A DNA stretch of 64,000 nt from Akkermansiaceae bacterium (GTDB taxonomy: Bacteria > Verrucomicrobiota > Verrucomicrobiia > Verrucomicrobiales > Akkermansiaceae). Shown here piece by piece: positions 5,084 to 16,591 of this stretch. Where the stretch lies: contig CAISTY010000022.1 in the NCBI GenBank assembly GCA_903888515.1, positions 1 through 64,000 on the forward strand. The letters run 5' to 3'. The notes under the pieces are model-generated. The model made no database searches and had not been told where the DNA came from. It saw nothing but the letters and a program-made list of their open reading frames with translations. The number at the start of each line of letters is the position of its first letter. Position 1 is the first letter of the stretch. A program made the translations under genes and the position numbers.

Positions 5084-5182
5084 GAGGCGCACTGACTCTG
5101 CCTTGCGAAAGTCCGTCACACAAGGCCGGATATTGGCTTTTATTCCCGGCCGGTGTGGCCATGCATCCGAACCGCTGCCCGT

Positions 5183-6988
5183 TCATTTCAAGTGCCTTCT
5201 GAGCGCTTCAAAATAAAAGATCAGAGGATACAATTTCTCGTCGTACCACAACAGCGCGAAATACAGGCCTATCGGGCTGGATCGCAGGCCGTTATTGGCC
5301 GCCTCATTTTCAAGCCATGCGAATCCATTCAGGATGGCCGCATGATCGCCACCGATCAATGCGGAGATTGCGAGCGATGTCTCCTCCATCGTTCCCGCAA
5401 CTCCAAACTCCCCGCCCCAACTGCCATTCTCATTCTGCTGACCTAGCAGAAATACCCGCGCGTCGGACACCATCCGTCGGATCCGCCCCTTTGCCGGCCC
5501 ATCGATACTCTCACACAACAAGCTGTCCTTCAGATAGACCATGATCTTCGCAGTCCCGTAAACCGGATTCCGCTGGTTTGAAGTCATCTGATTGCCAAAC
5601 CACAGCGGCCACCAGCTGCCATTGCCATTCTGGGCATTCCCCAGAAAGACGATTGCCTTGGCAATGCACTGCCGCACCGCATTCCGCAATTCTCCCGGCA
5701 TCCGCTCTCCCGCAACCTCGAGTGATTTGACCAAAGCCAGCATGGCATGTCCCGTCAGATCAGCGCAGCTACAATCGAAGGGAAGCCTTCCCCACCCCTT
5801 GCAAAATGTCGGAAATCCTCCGTCCTTGTTTTGAAGCTTGGTCAGCCACCGACATCCGTTGATGATCGACTCGTGATCCCCAATGTCAGAAACACCTAAC
5901 ACAATCAGAGCCAGAATCGCCCCCGACGTGTCGTCGACATCAGGCACGGAGCCGGGAAAATCGGTCCATCCCCAGCCACCAGGCTGTGCCAGATTGAATG
6001 GGTGTACGTCCCTGTGCTGAATTGCTTGCAGATGATTCACCAGCGTCCTCACCTCTGCTGCCGAAAATTCATTGGCCAGCTCGGACCCAAACGCATTGAC
6101 GCTGAGTGTGGTGACCCATGTTGACAAGTCGGTGTCGATTGGCCAACTGCCATCGGCCCGTTGGCGGCTGCGCAGGAAAGCGAGCCCTTGGGTGCTAACC
6201 TTGAGTTGCCCGAATCCGGAGGAAATCAAGCACATGGTGACGAATGCAGTCAGTGGAATCGCTTCGAGAAATCCGCCGCTTTTGGGGACAAGACCTTCAA
6301 GTTTTCGCAACGCGGGCTGAATGGATCTGCATCTGATCCAGTACATGAACGGGTTGTGGCGCTTCCTGGCTTTGAAGACGAAGATTCCAACAGCGATCAG
6401 CGCGGGTATTGCATAACTCACCACCCGTAAATTAAATACCCCGTACCACGACGCGGGAAGCAAGGTGAATTCAAAGGGCAACTGCGGAATTCTCGCGCAG
6501 GCATCCTTGTCGAGCAGCCCGCAAATGGCCAGCATCGCAAGGATTGGGACGGAAAAGGTGAGGTCTTTGCCGTAAAACCTCAACACCGGGGTGATCATGT
6601 CGCCTTTGGTCAAATCAATGTCCTGTCGGCCAAGGTACCTCCTGATACCCTCGAGGGCATCCCTGGATCGCTCGCCACCCTCTCCGCAATAGCTGATGGA
6701 GCCATAACACAGCAGCGAAGTGCTGACGTTGCTTTTGCATTCCGGCGTGTCGCCAAATCCTCCATCGCTATTGTTGTTTTCCAAGAGCCAGTCCAGCCCG
6801 CTGAGGATGGGTTGAGCGTCGGATACATTGCCGTTGAGTTTCAACGCAACAATAGCCACTGCCGTTCCCAGTGCGCTCGAGGAGAGCCTGCCCCTCCAAA
6901 AACCAGCGTCGTTCCGCTCCGATTTGAGCAGTCCTGCAAGAATTTCATACTGGTTCTCAAGAGTGCTCTTTTCCATAATGACATCCAT
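5183..6988 (-). CDS. squalene-hopene cyclase-like class II terpene cyclase family protein
   Basis: About 601 aa with prenyltransferase/squalene-oxidase repeats of (alpha/alpha)6-barrel cyclases: GFWRGRLSSSALGTAV near the start, QW-like repeats NNNSDGGFGD, RQRADGSWPID, KLQNKDGGFPTF, AQNGNGSWWPLWF and NENGSWGGEF. The catalytic-acid motif of class II cyclases is present as PDVDDTSGA (DVDDT at about residues 350-354). A hydrophobic segment (VVSYAIPALIAVGIFVF, about 195-215) suggests membrane attachment, as in SHC. It is last in a five-gene operon. Starts at 6988 (MDVIMEKS), 6976 or GTG 7021 are possible; the GTG would overlap the previous stop. Substrate unknown; shorter than canonical SHC. Confidence 0.75.
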   Translation of the reverse strand: MDVIMEKSTLENQYEILAGLLKSERNDAGFWRGRLSSSALGTAVAIVALKLNGNVSDAQPILSGLDWLLENNNSDGGFGDTPECKSNVSTSLLCYGSISYCGEGGERSRDALEGIRRYLGRQDIDLTKGDMITPVLRFYGKDLTFSVPILAMLAICGLLDKDACARIPQLPFEFTLLPASWYGVFNLRVVSYAIPALIAVGIFVFKARKRHNPFMYWIRCRSIQPALRKLEGLVPKSGGFLEAIPLTAFVTMCLISSGFGQLKVSTQGLAFLRSRQRADGSWPIDTDLSTWVTTLSVNAFGSELANEFSAAEVRTLVNHLQAIQHRDVHPFNLAQPGGWGWTDFPGSVPDVDDTSGAILALIVLGVSDIGDHESIINGCRWLTKLQNKDGGFPTFCKGWGRLPFDCSCADLTGHAMLALVKSLEVAGERMPGELRNAVRQCIAKAIVFLGNAQNGNGSWWPLWFGNQMTSNQRNPVYGTAKIMVYLKDSLLCESIDGPAKGRIRRMVSDARVFLLGQQNENGSWGGEFGVAGTMEETSLAISALIGGDHAAILNGFAWLENEAANNGLRSSPIGLYFALLWYDEKLYPLIFYFEALRRHLK

Positions 6989-7014
6989 CTCAACGCTTCC
7001 CCATAAAAAAGCCG

Positions 7015-7890
7015 CTAGCACAACGATCCCAACGCCAATAGGCCATAAAATGTGTATTCAACGTCAGATGCCGAATCATAGGCAGTCGCCCGAAACCCGC
7101 CGTTATCATACAACCCATCAACAAAAGCAAGGCAATCAGGCTTGATCAAGCGGAGGTCAGCACCGAGAAAATGAAGCGCATACAAGGCAACACCTGTTGA
7201 AAGCAAGTCTTCAGCAGGAGCTTGGCGAAGCGCGGCAAATCCGCCCTTTCCCCGGTAAAATGTCTTCAGCACTTCAACCGCATCGGACTTGCGATTTCCT
7301 GCGATTTCCAGGATGACTGCCGTTGCCGCAACCACGGGGCAGGGACGCCCGCTCAATGTGAGCGAGCGCCTATAGCGGGCGGCAATTAATTGTATTTGCC
7401 GGTAGTCTTCCAGATAGTGCAGTGCCAACACGCCGAGGAATCCGCCGTATTCCTGCTGCTGCGAGCTGGTTTGCGCCAGATCGGCGGCAATTTGCCTTCG
7501 CAATGTTTCGGTGATGTCGTCCAAGCCGATGAGCTTTGCATACAGAATCGCCCCACAATAAAGATGTACCCCGGTCAGGCGATTCGCTGTGACCGCCGTT
7601 GCCACATAATTTCTAAGCGGCTCCATGATCCCACTAACAGAAAGGGACTCCGCAAGATAGCATCCGAAAAGCGTGTAGTACAAGTCGCACCTCTCGCCCC
7701 TGTCAGGAAATCCGCCCTGAGGCGTCTGATTGCGAATCAAATATGACCGGATCTCGGCGATCATTTCGCAATCCAGCATCAATGTGGATCTGGCAAGCAC
7801 CGATTCAATCAACTTAGGCCGGACCCTTGCCAACCGAGGTTGCGCCGCCAGTCTAAATATGCTCCTTGAAAAGTTTCCCCAAAATTTCAT
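7015..7890 (-). CDS. prenyltransferase beta-subunit-like (alpha/alpha)6 barrel protein
   Basis: About 291 aa from ATG 7890; the frame extends further upstream but only inside the preceding gene. Repeats QGGFPDRGERCDLYYTLFG, YRGKGGFAAL and NGGFRATAYDSASDVEYTF resemble the GGF repeats of protein-prenyltransferase beta subunits and of terpene-cyclase halves. I see neither the protein-prenyltransferase zinc ligands with confidence nor a DxDD motif, so it may be a non-catalytic partner of the downstream cyclase. The start overlaps the end of the polyprenyl synthase gene by 38 nt, suggesting coupled translation. Substrate unknown. Confidence 0.6.
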   Translation of the reverse strand: MKFWGNFSRSIFRLAAQPRLARVRPKLIESVLARSTLMLDCEMIAEIRSYLIRNQTPQGGFPDRGERCDLYYTLFGCYLAESLSVSGIMEPLRNYVATAVTANRLTGVHLYCGAILYAKLIGLDDITETLRRQIAADLAQTSSQQQEYGGFLGVLALHYLEDYRQIQLIAARYRRSLTLSGRPCPVVAATAVILEIAGNRKSDAVEVLKTFYRGKGGFAALRQAPAEDLLSTGVALYALHFLGADLRLIKPDCLAFVDGLYDNGGFRATAYDSASDVEYTFYGLLALGSLC

Positions 7891-9448
7891 GTAATGCCAG
7901 TTTGAGACCCAGATTGGAAAGGCTTCCAAGGCAAGCGCGCGCGTCGGTGACCGCCCCGAGCAGCATGTTCCTGGCCGCATCTGGAACCTGATAGCGGTCA
8001 AGCAATTCCTGGACTGTGGCGCTGTCGCCGTGCCTGCACGCATTCAGCAGATTGGCGCCTTCTGATTCCGGAAGCTGTTCCTGCAGGATGGATAGCAAAA
8101 TCGAGAACCTTCTGACCGCAATATCACCCCTCGTGCCCTGATAATCGGACAAGTCATCCTGGATCTGATATGCAATGCCGAGAAAGTGGCAGTAGCTCTC
8201 CAAAATCGCGATTGTCTCATCGTCCGCGCCACCAGCTTTGGCGCCAAGCAACAAGGATACCTTGAGAGCGGCGGCTGTCTTTTTGTCAAACAAATCCAGC
8301 ATTTCCGCCACCGGGAGGATCTGGTTTGACCGGATGGAAATCAGTTCGGCGCCTTGTCCGAGCGTGAGACTGCGGTGGCCTCTGGAGACGATCCTGATGC
8401 CTTCGCGAATCAACTCTGAAGGCAGCGTGGTTTCCGCTATCAGCCGGTATCCCTCACCGATCAGGTGGTCGCCGGTGTTGATGGCCACGGCAATGCCGTA
8501 TCGGGCATGAACAGTCGCCTTGCCGTACCGCGTGTCGTCGTTATCTTCAATGTCATCATGTATCAATGACGCCTTATGAAAGCACTCCACCGCCACTGCC
8601 AGCTTGCTCAGAACCGTCGAGTCAGGCTCCTCTGCAAATGCTTCATATGCCAAGGCCAGCAGGAATGGTCGCAAGCGTTGCCCGCCGGAGAGCAGCGCTT
8701 CAAATGCAATGGTCTCGGTTTTGCTGCTGGCGGCCCCCAAGACCTGGACGATTCGCGCCTCCTCAAAAATCGAGCGGGTCTTGTTGCGCAGATGCTGGAG
8801 ATTGAATAATCTGACAGATTTGTCCTCGCGGAAATTGGCAACCTCCTGTTTGATCCATTCGGTGTCCGCCGTCGTGTCGACACAACCGGATGTCAGGAGC
8901 GGGATTCCGATGCTCGGCACCGAATATTTGGATACCGCGGCAAACATCCTTTGGAGCACTTCCATACACCCCACCCCGATCACGGCATCCACCTTGCCGC
9001 TTTCAATCAGGCGGGAAGTGATGGTGGTCCCCTCGGTCACCAAAGCAACGTATCCCAGATCCTCAGCCGCGCGCAGCAAGCCGGATATGCTGCAATTGCC
9101 ACACTCACTGCACAGCAAACCCAATTCATCCTGCCGGGCTTCGCAAAGCGCGGCATTCCGCAGGCATTGTGGCAGCAGGAAAATACGGCGATCAAAGGGT
9201 GTCGCGCTGACCACCGGGCGCCAGATTGCATTGCCACAACACACCATAATGAAGGCATGATAACGCTCCTCCCAGTTTTCAGACTTGACCAGGGAACTGG
9301 CGAACCCTTCCAACGCCTCGTAGGTGACCGGTGGCATTTCATTGCGCTCCAGAAAGTAGGTTTCCACGGCGGCCCGTATTTGGGCGCGCAGGAAATTGTC
9401 CTCGGGAACATCAAGTGCGGTTACCGGTTGACGCGTTTTCGCCTTCAT
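7853..9448 (-). CDS. DUF116 - trans-polyprenyl diphosphate synthase fusion
   Basis: 531 aa from ATG 9448 (an ATG at 9466 would overlap the upstream gene). Residues about 65-190 match DUF116: FLLPQCLRN, C102, the C113-x2-C116-x2-C119 triplet, and IGVGC at 157-161. Residues about 225-531 are an isoprenyl diphosphate synthase with GGQRLRPFL (255-263), the first Asp-rich motif DDIED (298-302) and the second, QDDLSD (430-435). Both Asp motifs are intact, so Mg-dependent allylic condensation is likely, supplying the two cyclase-fold proteins downstream. The Cys-rich half may bind metal or an Fe-S cluster. A fusion of these two domains is unusual. Confidence 0.8.
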   Translation of the reverse strand: MKAKTRQPVTALDVPEDNFLRAQIRAAVETYFLERNEMPPVTYEALEGFASSLVKSENWEERYHAFIMVCCGNAIWRPVVSATPFDRRIFLLPQCLRNAALCEARQDELGLLCSECGNCSISGLLRAAEDLGYVALVTEGTTITSRLIESGKVDAVIGVGCMEVLQRMFAAVSKYSVPSIGIPLLTSGCVDTTADTEWIKQEVANFREDKSVRLFNLQHLRNKTRSIFEEARIVQVLGAASSKTETIAFEALLSGGQRLRPFLLALAYEAFAEEPDSTVLSKLAVAVECFHKASLIHDDIEDNDDTRYGKATVHARYGIAVAINTGDHLIGEGYRLIAETTLPSELIREGIRIVSRGHRSLTLGQGAELISIRSNQILPVAEMLDLFDKKTAAALKVSLLLGAKAGGADDETIAILESYCHFLGIAYQIQDDLSDYQGTRGDIAVRRFSILLSILQEQLPESEGANLLNACRHGDSATVQELLDRYQVPDAARNMLLGAVTDARACLGSLSNLGLKLALHEILGKLFKEHI

Positions 9449-9458
9449 GCCATTGTCT

Positions 9459-10637
9459 TCAACCATATGCCCCCAATCCGAAAAAGGCCCGTCGTTTCGC
9501 CATCCGGTAGATCCAGCTCTTTTCAGGGATTCTCGGACAACTCCCATGGCTGCAAATGGCACAGCCATTGGCCAATTGCGCCGGCAAACCAGGACGGTTG
9601 GATGTGTTGACCGCCTGATGATCAGCCACGAAGGCCGCAAGCCAAGCCGGATTCTCCATCAAGATGCAACCCCGCGTCTGCTTGCCAACCTCGGTTCTGA
9701 AATCCCTGATGAAGGTGGAATTTTCGTACACCTCGGGCAACTTGCCGCTACTGATGTGATCGCACGAGAACTGGATCACCGGACATGGTTCGATATTTCC
9801 ATCGGGATTGATATGGTGGCTCAAGCCTTCCGCCGCCGGGCAAAATGGCTCGCCGTCGGCGCCCCAATACGAATCAATGAGCACCAGCGGATATTTGGCG
9901 CGCCCATCCACAAGGAAAGTGCGCAAGCGCAGGATGTCGTCAGGTGAGAGGGCCAGTTCATAATGAGGATTCTCTCCTGTCGGGCGATATATGTAGTACC
10001 AAAGATAGACCACTCCACAATCGTGCAGCATGGCAATGAACTCATCGGAGAGTGCCATTTCAATGTTTGATTTGCAGACACTGATGGCAACACCGGTGAT
10101 GAGGCGGTGCGCGGTGGCGGTCCTGATCGCTTTCATTGTCCGATCATAGACGTGATGGCCGCCCCTGCGGATGTCCGCCACATGCTCATTGCCTTCGAGA
10201 CTGATCAGCGGTGTCACATTCGCGAGACTCCGCAACTCGGCTGCGACTTTGTCGTTGAGCAAAGTGCCGTTTGTGAAGAGCTGGAAATAACAATCGGAGT
10301 GTGTGCGGAACAGCTCGAATAATCCACTGTGCATCAACGGTTCGCCACCGAGTATTCCGAAAAAGTGGCAACCTTGCCGCTTGCTGTCAGTTATAATCCC
10401 GTTGATTGCCGACAAATCGAGGCTTGATGTCCTGTCGCCTCTGGTGACCCAGCATCCCTGACACGCCAGGTTGCAGTTGTTGGTTATCGAAATGAACTGA
10501 AAGGCGGGAAATGTCAGGCCCCGCTTTTTCCTTTTCTGAAAGCTTGCGAATCCCTTGATTCCTTTCCATCCGAAATTATAGACAAGGGTCCACAGGCATT
10601 TGCGATCGGAACGCAGCACATTTCGCAGTATTGACAT
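9459..10637 (-). CDS. radical SAM enzyme of the terpenoid-like cluster
   Basis: 392 aa. The [4Fe-4S]/SAM motif is C55-x3-C59-x2-C62 in NNCNLACQGCW, followed by the GGEP motif (FGILGGEPLMH). The C-terminal third carries further cysteines (FCPAAEGL, PDGNIEPCPVIQF, GCAICSHGSCPRI) arranged like a SPASM/twitch auxiliary-cluster region. It starts 11 nt after the ferredoxin gene stop and ends 10 nt before the DUF116 fusion. It resembles peptide- or lipid-modifying SPASM enzymes, but the cluster context suggests an isoprenoid-derived substrate. The open frame extends to 11129, but that part overlaps the ferredoxin gene. Confidence 0.8.
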   Translation of the reverse strand: MSILRNVLRSDRKCLWTLVYNFGWKGIKGFASFQKRKKRGLTFPAFQFISITNNCNLACQGCWVTRGDRTSSLDLSAINGIITDSKRQGCHFFGILGGEPLMHSGLFELFRTHSDCYFQLFTNGTLLNDKVAAELRSLANVTPLISLEGNEHVADIRRGGHHVYDRTMKAIRTATAHRLITGVAISVCKSNIEMALSDEFIAMLHDCGVVYLWYYIYRPTGENPHYELALSPDDILRLRTFLVDGRAKYPLVLIDSYWGADGEPFCPAAEGLSHHINPDGNIEPCPVIQFSCDHISSGKLPEVYENSTFIRDFRTEVGKQTRGCILMENPAWLAAFVADHQAVNTSNRPGLPAQLANGCAICSHGSCPRIPEKSWIYRMAKRRAFFGLGAYG

Positions 10638-10647
10638 TGTCAGGTTC

Positions 10648-11430
10648 CTATGGCTTCGGGCTTTTTCCGGCAAGAGCCTTGTCCCGTTCAGCAATTGCCT
10701 GCTGCATGGCCGTTGTGCGGATAATCGACTGGCGTTTTGCCTTTCGTAGTGCGAGCGCCTGATAAATATTGCTTCCCAGTATTGTGTCGATATCGATTTG
10801 TTGTCGTTGCTGTTCAGAGATTTCATCGATCGTCTCCGCGCCGGCAATGGCTCCCGCGTGTTCGTATTTCGGAAAGACGATTGCCGTTTGCGGACAGATC
10901 CGGCCACATGCCGGACAGTTGTTTTTGCATTCCTTGGGATTGACGACAACCACTTTATCATCCCGCTTCTCGTACACGCCAAAGAGGCAGAAATCAGCGC
11001 ATTGCCCGCAGGCGCTGCATCGCGAATAATCAATGACAGGGAACCACGCGGGCCATTCTGAATGGCTCTGAAACACAGAGGACTCCCCGCCGCCGCCACC
11101 GCCGGCAAAAAACGAGTCGATTGCGGCAAAAATCTCAGAATCGCTCATTGCCCTGAAATTGACGAAGATGAAATTCGTCGAGTGCGGGTCGATGCCGCAG
11201 TTGGCCAGCAGCAGTTTGACGGCACGCGGAAAGCAGGCGATCATCAAAATCTCATCTGCCGACAAGAGCAGGTCACGGGTTTCACTCCTGCGGTCGACAG
11301 AAGTGCCGCAGAGGTCGGATATCTCGGTAAACGGATGGCCGGCTTGCTGCAAGTACCCGGAAATCGCCGCCGCCCGGGTCGGCTCTAGCAGCTTCGCGCC
11401 GCAGTGACAAAAAATCGCTTTCCTGGTCAT
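10648..11430 (-). CDS. 2[4Fe-4S] ferredoxin-domain protein, first gene of the cluster
   Basis: 260 aa from ATG 11430. Residues 138-148 (CSACGQCADFC) and 168-179 (CKNNCPACGRIC) form two [4Fe-4S] motifs. The N-terminal 80 residues start with FCHCGAK and contain ILMIACFPRAVKLLL, loosely like the small subunits/MvhD-type domains of heterodisulfide-reductase systems. A Gly run (about 110-115) links the two parts. A likely role is delivering electrons to the adjacent radical SAM enzyme. The frame upstream of 11430 lies antisense to dnaK and is not coding. Confidence 0.75.
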   Translation of the reverse strand: MTRKAIFCHCGAKLLEPTRAAAISGYLQQAGHPFTEISDLCGTSVDRRSETRDLLLSADEILMIACFPRAVKLLLANCGIDPHSTNFIFVNFRAMSDSEIFAAIDSFFAGGGGGGESSVFQSHSEWPAWFPVIDYSRCSACGQCADFCLFGVYEKRDDKVVVVNPKECKNNCPACGRICPQTAIVFPKYEHAGAIAGAETIDEISEQQRQQIDIDTILGSNIYQALALRKAKRQSIIRTTAMQQAIAERDKALAGKSPKP

Positions 11431-11606
11431 GAGAATCAAGGAAGGAGGTGGAGCGGGGAGATTCATCAAGGAGTTGGCTTGGCGCGGAAAATACTCGTCA
11501 GTCCGGCTTTGCCAAGGATTCATTGCGACAGATTCATTCCGAAACAGAGGGCGACCGCCGCGACCCGAACGCCGGGTTGTGGAATGCCGCACCCTACGCC
11601 TTATCA

Positions 11607-11619
11607 GGACAATTTGTCC
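11607..11619. promoter_or_regulatory. palindrome in the dnaK/terpenoid-cluster divergent spacer
   Basis: GGACAA-T-TTGTCC is a perfect 13-bp palindrome with a further TTGTCC half-site at 11639-11644. It lies about 180 bp upstream of the ferredoxin start, a position compatible with an operator for the minus-strand cluster. No protein is identified. The 373-nt spacer 11431-11803 shows no gene. Confidence 0.25.
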
Positions 11620-11671
11620 CAACCGAACCGCGCCAACTTGTCCAAAACAGGCCCTAATCCGTCGCCAGTAA

Positions 11672-13714
<2,043 letters not shown>

Positions 13715-14251: not shown

Positions 14252-14848
14252 ATGCCTAAGCGAATTACATGCACTTCACGAGATGCTCGTAAGTATTGCG
14301 AACAAAGCTTATGCAGAATAGTTAAGGTGATTAGTAGTATCTTAGAGGAAGATTACGAAAATCCACAATGGACACTTTATACAAATGTTCTCGGCGATCC
14401 AAACGCATGGCGGATTTCTGAGAATGAGCCCGTATATTTTTATGAGGAAGCACGATTTCAAACTAGACATGGAGATGTCAAGCGTTGCGCCTCGTTATGG
14501 TTGTATAAGAACAGGATTTTTGAAGAGGGACATGGTAATGACTACACTTTGGAACAACGCAAACTTCTTGTTCTTGAGGAATTTGATAAAGAACGGATAC
14601 AATTTGAAAAACTTCATGCGAAATTCTCGGGACTATCAAGTGCTTCGCAGGCTCGTTCAAAAATCCCGTCACATGTTCGTATTTATGTGTGGCAAAGAGA
14701 CGGGGGACGATGTGTTGAATGTAGCTCCAACGAAAACCTCGAGTATGATCACATTATTCCCTTCGCCAAAGGTGGCGCGAACACTGAAAGAAACCTGCAA
14801 CTTTTGTGTGGTGCCTGTAATCGTTTGAAATCTGCCAATATCCAATGA
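14252..14848 (+). CDS. HNH endonuclease
   Basis: 198 aa. The C-terminal 55 residues form a classical HNH/beta-beta-alpha-metal domain: CVECSSNENLEYDHIIPFA, GGANTERNLQLLC and GACNRLKSAN, with two CxxC zinc-binding pairs and the catalytic D-H. The N-terminal 140 residues are unrecognised. Low GC and a codon usage unlike its neighbours mark it as transferred. Its stop overlaps the next start (TGATG). The role could be restriction of foreign DNA or homing; the dinD-fic neighbourhood favours defence/stress. Confidence 0.8.
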   Translation: MPKRITCTSRDARKYCEQSLCRIVKVISSILEEDYENPQWTLYTNVLGDPNAWRISENEPVYFYEEARFQTRHGDVKRCASLWLYKNRIFEEGHGNDYTLEQRKLLVLEEFDKERIQFEKLHAKFSGLSSASQARSKIPSHVRIYVWQRDGGRCVECSSNENLEYDHIIPFAKGGANTERNLQLLCGACNRLKSANIQ

Positions 14849-15006
14849 TGCCTAACCTCGCCCCCAAACACCAACGCCTTGCCGCGCCGCGCCCGCTCGC
14901 TCCGGCCGCGGTCGCCAGCATTGCGGCGGCGTGGGATGTGCGGATGGATCCAACTTCCGATCATTTTCCTGACCTCAGGAAAATGATCCATAAACCCCAG
15001 CCATGA
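14848..15006 (+). pseudogene. 52-codon chimeric remnant: fic start joined to a dinD-like segment
   Basis: Residues 1-33 (MPNLAPKHQRLAAPRPLAPA then SIAAAWDVRM) copy the N-terminus of the Fic protein encoded at 15842. Residues 37-48 (SDHFPDLRKMIH) copy the SDQFLEVTKLIS segment of DinD encoded at 15003. It is tied by overlapping start/stop codons to both the HNH gene (TGATG) and dinD (ATGA). I read it as the remains of a fic/dinD repeat unit; it may still be translated as a coupling peptide. Confidence 0.6.
14959..14988. promoter_or_regulatory. 30-bp perfect palindrome just before dinD
   Basis: GATCATTTTCCTGA-CC-TCAGGAAAATGATC, two perfect 14-base arms, ends 14 nt before the dinD ATG. A related imperfect palindrome (GATCAATTTC...GAAATTGATC, 15196-15225) lies at the homologous place inside dinD, so its origin is coding. 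It could nevertheless act as an operator or mRNA hairpin. Confidence 0.5.
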
Positions 15007-15845
15007 AGAAATCCGTCATCTCCACGCTTCTCGCGGAACTTGAAAGGCTCGTTCAAGTCGAACAGGAGTTCGGCGTGGAATTCTGGCTGGCGCGGGATCT
15101 CCAAGGTGTTCTTGGCTACCTGCGATGGGAGAACTTCCGCAAGGTTATCGGGGACGCGATGAAGGCCTGTGAAACCTCTGGGAATAAGGCTTCTGATCAA
15201 TTTCTTGAGGTCACGAAATTGATCAGCCACGGCAAGGGCGGGCAGCGGGAAATCCAAGATTTCATGCTCACCCGCTACGCCTGTTACCTCATCGCCCAGA
15301 ATGGCGATCCGGCAAAGGATGAGATCGCGTTCTGCCAAACCTACTTTGCCGTCCAAACGCGGCGGCAGGAAATCATCGAAAAGCGCATTTCTGAGGTGGA
15401 GCGCCTGCGTGCCCGCAAGAAGCTTACCGAGTCCGAAAAGCTGCTTTCCACGCTGATTTACGAGAAGGTGGGTGACGAACGCAGCTTTGGAATTATCCGC
15501 AGCAAGGGCGATCAGGCGCTGTTCGGTGGACATACCACACAGGACATGAAAACCCGCCTCGGAGTGCCGGACAACCGTCCCTTGGCTGACTTCCTCCCGA
15601 CCATCACCATCAAGGCCAAGGATTTTGCCAATGAAATCACCACCTTCAGCATCGGGCGTGATGGATTGGCCTGTGAGCGAGCGATCACCCACGAACACGT
15701 CAAGAACAACACCGATGTTCGCAACCTGCTAGGACAACGGAACATCCATCCCGAAAGTCTTCCTCCTGCAGAAGATCTCAAAAAGGTTGAACGCCGCCTG
15801 AAATCGGAAGAAAAGAAACTTCCCCGTCGCAATTCACCGGAATGA
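15003..15845 (+). CDS. dinD: DNA damage-inducible protein D
   Basis: 280 aa, the usual DinD length. The N-terminal BRO-like domain shows FWLARDLQGVLGYLRWENF and SDQFLEVTKLISHGKGGQRE, followed by YFAVQTRRQEIIEKR and the conserved DinD C-terminal region (NRPLADFLPTITIKAKDFA, EHVKNNTDVRNLLGQR). In E. coli DinD is LexA-controlled and inhibits RecA filament activity. No obvious LexA box was found, but a 30-bp palindrome lies just upstream. Its stop overlaps the fic start (ATGA), so the two are co-translated. Confidence 0.9.
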   Translation: MKKSVISTLLAELERLVQVEQEFGVEFWLARDLQGVLGYLRWENFRKVIGDAMKACETSGNKASDQFLEVTKLISHGKGGQREIQDFMLTRYACYLIAQNGDPAKDEIAFCQTYFAVQTRRQEIIEKRISEVERLRARKKLTESEKLLSTLIYEKVGDERSFGIIRSKGDQALFGGHTTQDMKTRLGVPDNRPLADFLPTITIKAKDFANEITTFSIGRDGLACERAITHEHVKNNTDVRNLLGQRNIHPESLPPAEDLKKVERRLKSEEKKLPRRNSPE

Positions 15846-16591
15846 CCACTCTCCTCACCAAACACCAACGCCTCGCCGCGCTGCGTCCGCTCTCCCCGGA
15901 GTCGGTCGGCAGTCTTGCGGCGGCGTGGGATGTTAGGATGGTGTATGAGTCGAACTCGATCGAAGGCAACAGCCTCACACTGCGTGAAACCGAGTTGGTT
16001 CTATCCAAAGGGGTCACTGTTTCCGGCAAACCGTTCAAGGACCACCTGGAGGCCGTCAACCTCTCAATGGCATGGGAGCAGGTGAAATCTCTTGCCGCGC
16101 CTGACGCCGTGCTCACCGAGCGTGATCTGCTAGATCTGCACCGCATCGTGCTCACCCGCGTGGAGGATCGCTTCGCCGGTTTCTACCGCACCGGAGCCGT
16201 GCGCATCGCCGGATCCAACCACATCCCGCCGAATCCGGTGAAAGTGCCGGATCTGATGGACGATTTGTTCACGGAAATCCAAACGATCACCGATCCTGTC
16301 GAACGCGCCGCGAAACTCCACCACGGGATCGCCCGCATCCATCCATTTGCCGATGGCAACGGCCGCACCGCACGCCTGGCGATGAACTTTGTGTTGCTCG
16401 CGGCCGGTTATCCGCCGATTTCGATTCCCACCGAGCTCCGGCAGGCCTATTACAACGCCCTCGAAGCCGCCGACGCCGGCGATTTCCAATCATGGCTAAA
16501 CTTCCTCACCCAACAACTCGACCAAGAACTCGACCTCTGGCTCGATGCCCTTGAAGAGACGCAAGACCCAAGACTTCAAGACCCAAGTTAA
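15842..16591 (+). CDS. fic: Fic family protein (AMPylase), with N-terminal inhibitory motif
   Basis: 249 aa. The active-site motif is HPFADGNGRTAR, fully canonical, so nucleotide transfer (usually AMP) to a target hydroxyl is expected. The inhibitory helix motif (S/T)xxxE(G/N) is present N-terminally as SNSIEGN, making it a self-inhibited class II type that needs no separate antitoxin. It overlaps dinD by 4 nt. The last residues (ETQDPRLQDPS) are encoded by the start of a heptamer repeat array, so the repeat has grown into the gene or the stop was lost. Confidence 0.92.
   Translation: MTTLLTKHQRLAALRPLSPESVGSLAAAWDVRMVYESNSIEGNSLTLRETELVLSKGVTVSGKPFKDHLEAVNLSMAWEQVKSLAAPDAVLTERDLLDLHRIVLTRVEDRFAGFYRTGAVRIAGSNHIPPNPVKVPDLMDDLFTEIQTITDPVERAAKLHHGIARIHPFADGNGRTARLAMNFVLLAAGYPPISIPTELRQAYYNALEAADAGDFQSWLNFLTQQLDQELDLWLDALEETQDPRLQDPS

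Follow-up and report, generated by a model that had tools for sequence, protein, structure and literature searches.

A conserved five-gene cluster with a DUF116-polyprenyl synthase fusion and a squalene-hopene cyclase-like protein as a candidate terpenoid operon of undescribed type

The sesquarterpenoid (C35) route of Bacillus comprises a heptaprenyl diphosphate synthase, a tetraprenyl-beta-curcumene synthase and a cyclase. A polyprenyl synthetase fused to a DUF116 domain has been noted earlier in Psta_0175 of Pirellula staleyi, and the excerpt of that report predicts DUF116 to be a flavodoxin-like, metal-binding domain with a role in electron transfer (PMC5898192). Here we describe five minus-strand genes, called FDX, rSAM, D116, PT and CYC, that lie between recJ and dnaK at positions 5183-11430 of the window, the whole 64 kb stretch of DNA analysed, on contig C22 of a 309-contig, 5.3 Mb assembly (genome G000). 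They form a conserved, co-inherited unit, which includes a class II cyclase and a second, dedicated trans-polyprenyl diphosphate synthase joined to a DUF116 domain, and the evidence largely supports reading the cluster as a terpenoid biosynthetic operon of undescribed type, of which the part known earlier, as far as the excerpted source goes, is the DUF116-synthase fusion (PMC5898192).

FDX (10648-11430, 260 residues) is followed after 10 nucleotides by rSAM (9459-10637, 392 residues), which overlaps D116 (7853-9466, 537 residues) by 8 nucleotides (ATGGTTGA). D116 in turn overlaps PT (7015-7890, 291 residues) by 38 nucleotides, and PT is separated by 38 nucleotides from CYC (5183-6976, 597 residues from its ATG), or overlaps it by 7 nucleotides if CYC starts at an alternative in-frame GTG at 7021. 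Genes that overlap or nearly abut in this way have an operon-like layout. An earlier note on this DNA had read here five contiguous minus-strand genes, among them those for a 2[4Fe-4S] protein, a radical SAM enzyme with extra cysteines, a DUF116-polyprenyl synthase fusion with both Asp-rich motifs and a protein like squalene-hopene cyclase (SHC) that keeps DVDDT; the open reading frames (ORFs) confirm its coordinates and overlaps, and the profile matches and conserved residues described below bear out each of these components. All five proteins exceed the curated Pfam cut-offs, and no NCBIfam profile match shown for them reaches its cut-off, so that no named function applies to them.

The gene set is conserved as a set. 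An alignment scan with D116 across 84,980 species genomes yielded 552 confirmed relatives, and all five genes occur at 29 of the best 80 loci, the real spread being larger than these best-ranked loci convey. Together with four from the window's order these make 33 complete clusters, spanning Bacteroidota, Planctomycetota, Acidobacteriota, Verrucomicrobiota and Kiritimatiellae (five phylum-level groups), and 27 of the 33 keep the window's order FDX, rSAM, D116, PT, CYC on one strand, which is more than chance would give. The earlier note's own reservation, that the genes might never be conserved together, is thereby set aside; nor does the open-licence PubMed Central literature hold a paper that we could find on the five-gene cluster, or an assignment of this order to a known hopanoid or carotenoid route. 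Cultured carriers include Sunxiuqinia elliptica, with a complete cluster, and Chthoniobacter flavus, in which D116, PT and CYC lie near one another (locus L204).

Most genomes of the window's order have the genes scattered, yet every one of the 27 genomes tested that have D116/rSAM also has CYC, and none of the 8 that lack them does. Across 387 genomes of the order, the presence or absence of rSAM and CYC agrees in 361 (both in 117, neither in 244; phi 0.85), rSAM occurs alone in 9 and CYC alone in 17, and some of these single occurrences are expected from incomplete metagenome-assembled genomes (MAGs).

In the window itself, the block was acquired horizontally, as one unit. Among the matches listed, the closest relatives of all five window proteins are from Bacteroidia MAGs, with 68-81% identity to locus L153, and five separate gene trees congruently nest the window within a Bacteroidota clade. 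In same-genus genomes recJ directly adjoins dnaK, leaving an empty site, and the DNA homology of the window to these genomes ends at about 5085 and returns at about 11775, which delimits an insert at about 5086-11774 (no strand assigned). The GC (guanine plus cytosine) content of the cluster is 54.5%, compared with 60.5% for recJ and 59.0% for dnaK, and third-position GC is 0.58-0.66 in the insert versus 0.72-0.78 in the flanking genes. Only two other same-genus genomes sampled (G019 and G029) have the pathway, in a different, verrucomicrobial-type copy. Contamination or misbinning is ruled out by the flanking RecJ, 85% identical to that of a same-genus genome, and by the empty recJ-dnaK site. 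The joint transfer of all five genes, each still intact, argues for a functional unit, and a unit that is kept across phyla, inherited as a set in a whole order and transferable as a block very likely makes a product useful to the cell.

D116 joins a DUF116 domain (approximately residues 65-207; PF01976, 3e-31, 108.4 bits) to a polyprenyl_synt domain (approximately residues 255-537; PF00348, 7e-41, 140.5 bits). The latter score and two Asp-rich motifs conserved among orthologs, D304-D305-I-E-D308 and D437-D438-L-S-D441, identify it as a trans-polyprenyl diphosphate synthase, and in an AlphaFold2 model (predicted local distance difference test score, pLDDT, 89.8) the domain appears as a complete synthase, with Z 33.5 to the geranylgeranyl diphosphate synthase 6kd7. 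In this family, long chains are favoured by small residues immediately before the first Asp motif; in D116 the residues just before DDIED are A299 and S300, both small, which suggests a long-chain product. A separate polyprenyl synthase is encoded elsewhere in G000 (contig C247), making D116 an extra, second synthase. The other domain is assigned to DUF116 and carries seven conserved cysteines (C101, C108, C119, C122, C125, C167 and C195). A DUF116-only profile found no match among PDB sequences, and the matches in a structure search with the D116 model all came from the synthase domain. At the closest Bacteroidia relative, L153, D116 is seemingly split into two overlapping ORFs (9824-11694), a frameshift or an assembly error.

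CYC is a member of the class II (DxDD) terpene cyclases of the SQHop superfamily, with its acid motif and matches to SQHop_cyclase_C (PF13243, 3e-24, 86 bits) and SQHop_cyclase_N (PF13249, 3e-15, 56.5 bits). The motif, PDVDDT, occupies residues 345-350 (D346, D348 and D349), the Asp residues of PDxDDT being conserved in 35-45 orthologs, and is accompanied by the supporting H410 and Y473. In SHC numbering, CYC retains the equivalents of D374, D376, D377, W312, H451, W489 and Y495, but not those of F601 and Y609, which lie at the distal end of the cavity in SHC. By these residues, CYC is a class II cyclase in which the proton-donor machinery of SHC is preserved. A profile search matches it to the SHC structure 1gsz at 4e-36, and it is approximately 21% identical to SHCs of the same phylum; as an SHC proper it was rejected, scoring 62.9 bits on TIGR01507 against a cut-off of 431.1, whereas true SHCs of the phylum score 637-725 bits. 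In the CYC/SHC tree the L254 sequence is probably a wrong ORF (833 residues) and its long branch likely an artefact. Other PF13243 matches in G000 lie on contigs C146 and C284, and the surroundings of the former resemble repeat proteins rather than a cyclase.

FDX combines an N-terminal domain of approximately 110 residues, in which four cysteines (8, 10, 41 and 66) are invariant, with a C-terminal 2[4Fe-4S] ferredoxin domain (Fer4_10, 2e-6, over the cut-off) whose eight conserved cysteines are 138, 141, 144, 148, 168, 172, 175 and 179. Most of its relatives in planctomycetes, verrucomicrobia and acidobacteria are encoded as two separate ORFs. Pfam, NCBIfam and PDB profile searches gave no named family for the N-terminal domain and did not support an HdrA-like identity, considered by eye from its CxC, LC and AC.PR pattern. 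The rSAM protein falls in the radical SAM superfamily (PF04055, 1.3e-16, 61.6 bits), with a CxxxCxxC motif (C55, C59 and C62) conserved among orthologs and four further conserved cysteines (C188, C266, C285 and C324); its C-terminal part, judged by eye, may be twitch/SPASM-like. It is weakly similar to SPASM-type maturases, its NCBIfam matches, all below cut-off, are mostly peptide or heme maturases, and the nearest solved sequence is the peptide maturase SkfB. Assignment to the adenosyl-hopene transferase HpnH (TIGR03470) was rejected at 42.9 bits against a cut-off of 225. Some clusters lack rSAM at the usual place but have, close by, a NifS-like cysteine desulfurase paired with a divergent homologue of rSAM (37-38% identity; L157 4483-7071, L172 14808-17203 and L194 4354-6818).

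PT, with a Prenyltrans match over the cut-off (PF00432, 5e-7), is a single alpha/alpha toroid of the protein-prenyltransferase beta-subunit fold and has no DxDD motif. Its AlphaFold2 model (pLDDT 93.1) is best matched by RabGGTase beta (4ehm; Z 20.7, root-mean-square deviation 2.9), with SHC-family toroids slightly below (Z 17-19). Conserved residues are D69, Y71, Y72, D228, D276 and E278.

On balance, we favour reading the block as a self-contained operon that builds a cyclic polyprenoid without a need for oxygen. The synthase domain of D116 would extend an allylic diphosphate with isopentenyl diphosphate to a long all-trans polyprenyl diphosphate, on which the Fe-S DUF116 domain, with electrons from FDX, may act by reductive diphosphate removal, reduction or chain joining. 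PT, as a prenyl-binding toroid without an acid motif, might serve as a partner or in handover; CYC would protonate the terminal isoprene through D348 and close several rings; and rSAM, also fed by FDX, could introduce a radical C-C or C-H modification into the chain or the ring product. The product would probably be a membrane lipid, a hopanoid surrogate.

Outside the window, the cluster has further neighbours. In clusters from planctomycetes, verrucomicrobia and acidobacteria, FDX is immediately preceded by genes for a CobW/G3E GTPase and for a GcvH-like protein with its lipoyl-lysine context intact (L160 5195-6852, and at the same place in L165, L170, L178, L190 and L211), and both genes largely co-occur with the cluster in the window's order. 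The GcvH-like and CobW-like proteins tested reached no NCBIfam cut-off. Some Bacteroidia clusters have a CobW-like GTPase, with a Cys-rich tail in L140, and an ArsP_1 permease after CYC (L140 10008-11918; also L145 and L153), and no GcvH-like gene was seen beside the Bacteroidota clusters. G000 gave no match to the GcvH-like protein; its CobW-like gene is divergent, lies beside TonB receptor and transporter-like genes, and was rejected as a member of the system. NifS-like genes adjoin some clusters. Elsewhere in the window, between dnaK and groES/groEL, positions 14252-16591 encode HNH endonuclease, BRO-N/DinD-like and Fic-family proteins at a GC content of approximately 49%, possibly a second island.

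Three other readings draw on the same genes. The likeness of PT to RabGGTase beta (Z 20.7), SkfB as the best solved match of rSAM, the peptide and heme maturases among its NCBIfam matches and the GcvH-like carrier protein adjoining clusters in other phyla would all suit a prenylated cofactor, peptide or protein, for which D116 would make the prenyl donor, with PT as a subunit like those of protein prenyltransferases, rSAM as a maturase of the SPASM type and CYC as the enzyme that cyclises the chain once attached. We consider this unlikely: we noticed neither a precursor peptide gene nor a protein-prenyltransferase alpha subunit among the genes of the cluster in the window, G000 lacks the GcvH-like gene, none was seen beside Bacteroidota clusters, and CYC retains the SHC protonation residues, as expected for a free polyprene substrate.

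Where the substrate of CYC comes from bears on a second alternative. Neither the cluster nor the surroundings of those relatives' clusters that were examined showed hpnCDE or squalene synthase genes, and the lack of hpnCDE remarked on in the earlier note holds for the window; two genes of the squalene/phytoene-synthase family (PF00494) lie elsewhere in G000 (C248 28213-28974 and C204 7076-7924). With these, CYC, SHC-like in family and acid motif, could cyclise squalene in a hopanoid-like route, D116 supplying farnesyl diphosphate (FPP) and rSAM, which matches HpnH weakly (42.9 bits), acting like HpnH on the polycyclic product. Such a route is quite improbable. PF00494 genes are present in 35 of 35 tested genomes of the order, with or without the cluster; outside the order, no such gene was detected in 8 of 30 genomes that carry the cluster, mostly MAGs for which completeness is not given. 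A cyclase using ordinary squalene would be expected to be accompanied by squalene synthase, but PF00494 and CYC do not co-vary, which makes the linked extra synthase D116 the better candidate supplier of the CYC substrate. The scores of CYC on TIGR01507 (62.9 bits) and of rSAM on TIGR03470 fall far below those of true SHCs (637-725 bits) and the HpnH cut-off (225 bits), respectively, and hopanoids do not need a DUF116 synthase. A sulfur- or metal-linked lipid, in which the lipoylatable GcvH-like protein, the CobW GTPase and the NifS-like gene product transfer sulfur or a metal-bound group to the polyprenyl chain via DUF116/FDX with cyclisation as one step, would account for the GcvH-like and dedicated CobW-like proteins flanking FDX in clusters from planctomycetes, verrucomicrobia and acidobacteria, for their largely shared occurrence with FDX and for the NifS-like neighbours, but is very unlikely given that the transferred window block consists of five genes only and that G000 has no GcvH-like match and a divergent CobW-like gene in a different setting.

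Several points weigh against the cyclic polyprenoid operon that we favour. Its main weakness is that a plain terpenoid route leaves the GcvH-like and CobW-like partners of other phyla unaccounted for. In addition, PT most resembles protein prenyltransferase beta subunits, rSAM weakly resembles many peptide- and cofactor-modifying families and no lipid-acting family strongly, the co-occurrence counts are phylogenetically non-independent, and the eight PF00494-negative genomes are mostly MAGs of ungiven completeness. Of the earlier note's proposal of a dedicated, undescribed terpenoid-type pathway, the dedicated pathway largely stands, on gene order across phyla, genome-wide co-occurrence, block transfer and the lack of a paper found, while product and chemistry are unproven.

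The cluster could give DUF116 its first assigned role in bacteria, and groups that lack classical SHCs could owe to it a lipid resembling hopanoids or sterols. The cheilanthanes, orphan tricyclic terpanes that occur in oils and ancient sediments, have been attributed to tricyclohexaprenol, a membrane lipid of prokaryotes, as quoted in the excerpt of PMC10319793. A dedicated polyprenyl synthase with an SHC-like cyclase and no squalene synthase is the kind of gene set that this idea needs, which speculatively connects the operon with cheilanthanes. As a doubtful possibility, then, the operon may be an unrecognised route that makes cyclised regular polyprenoids with neither squalene synthase nor oxygen, and a candidate cheilanthane source. 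DUF116 and the radical SAM enzyme would then process a long polyprenyl diphosphate, either ahead of class II cyclisation or afterwards. The cluster could also provide a defined set of genes with which to look for the organisms that make the tricyclic terpanes of sediments.

Compared with known systems, the cluster combines familiar parts in a different setting. With SHC (TIGR01507), CYC shares both SQHop Pfam domains, the DxDDT acid motif and the W312, H451, W489 and Y495 equivalents, but unlike in the hopanoid pathway it is linked to D116, rSAM, FDX and PT, with neither hpnCDE nor HpnH in the cluster. Drimenyl diphosphate synthase and other bacterial class II cyclases (7xqz and 8zg0), which CYC matches by profile at approximately 1e-12, act on prenyl diphosphates; the substrate of drimenyl diphosphate synthase, however, is short-chain FPP, and it has no known radical SAM, DUF116 or FDX partners. 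PT has the same alpha/alpha toroid as the RabGGTase/GGTase beta subunits (245 residues aligned), yet is 11% identical to them and has no alpha-subunit gene noticed in its cluster. Psta_0175 shows the same domain fusion as D116, and the excerpted report covers this fusion alone, not the five genes as a unit, nor their distribution, their transfer or the association with a cyclase (PMC5898192). The Bacillus C35 route resembles the proposed pathway in placing a polyprenyl diphosphate synthase before a squalene-cyclase-family enzyme that acts on a regular polyprene and not on squalene, whereas in the window block no first-ring synthase family was found, and an Fe-S DUF116 domain, a ferredoxin and a radical SAM enzyme are added.

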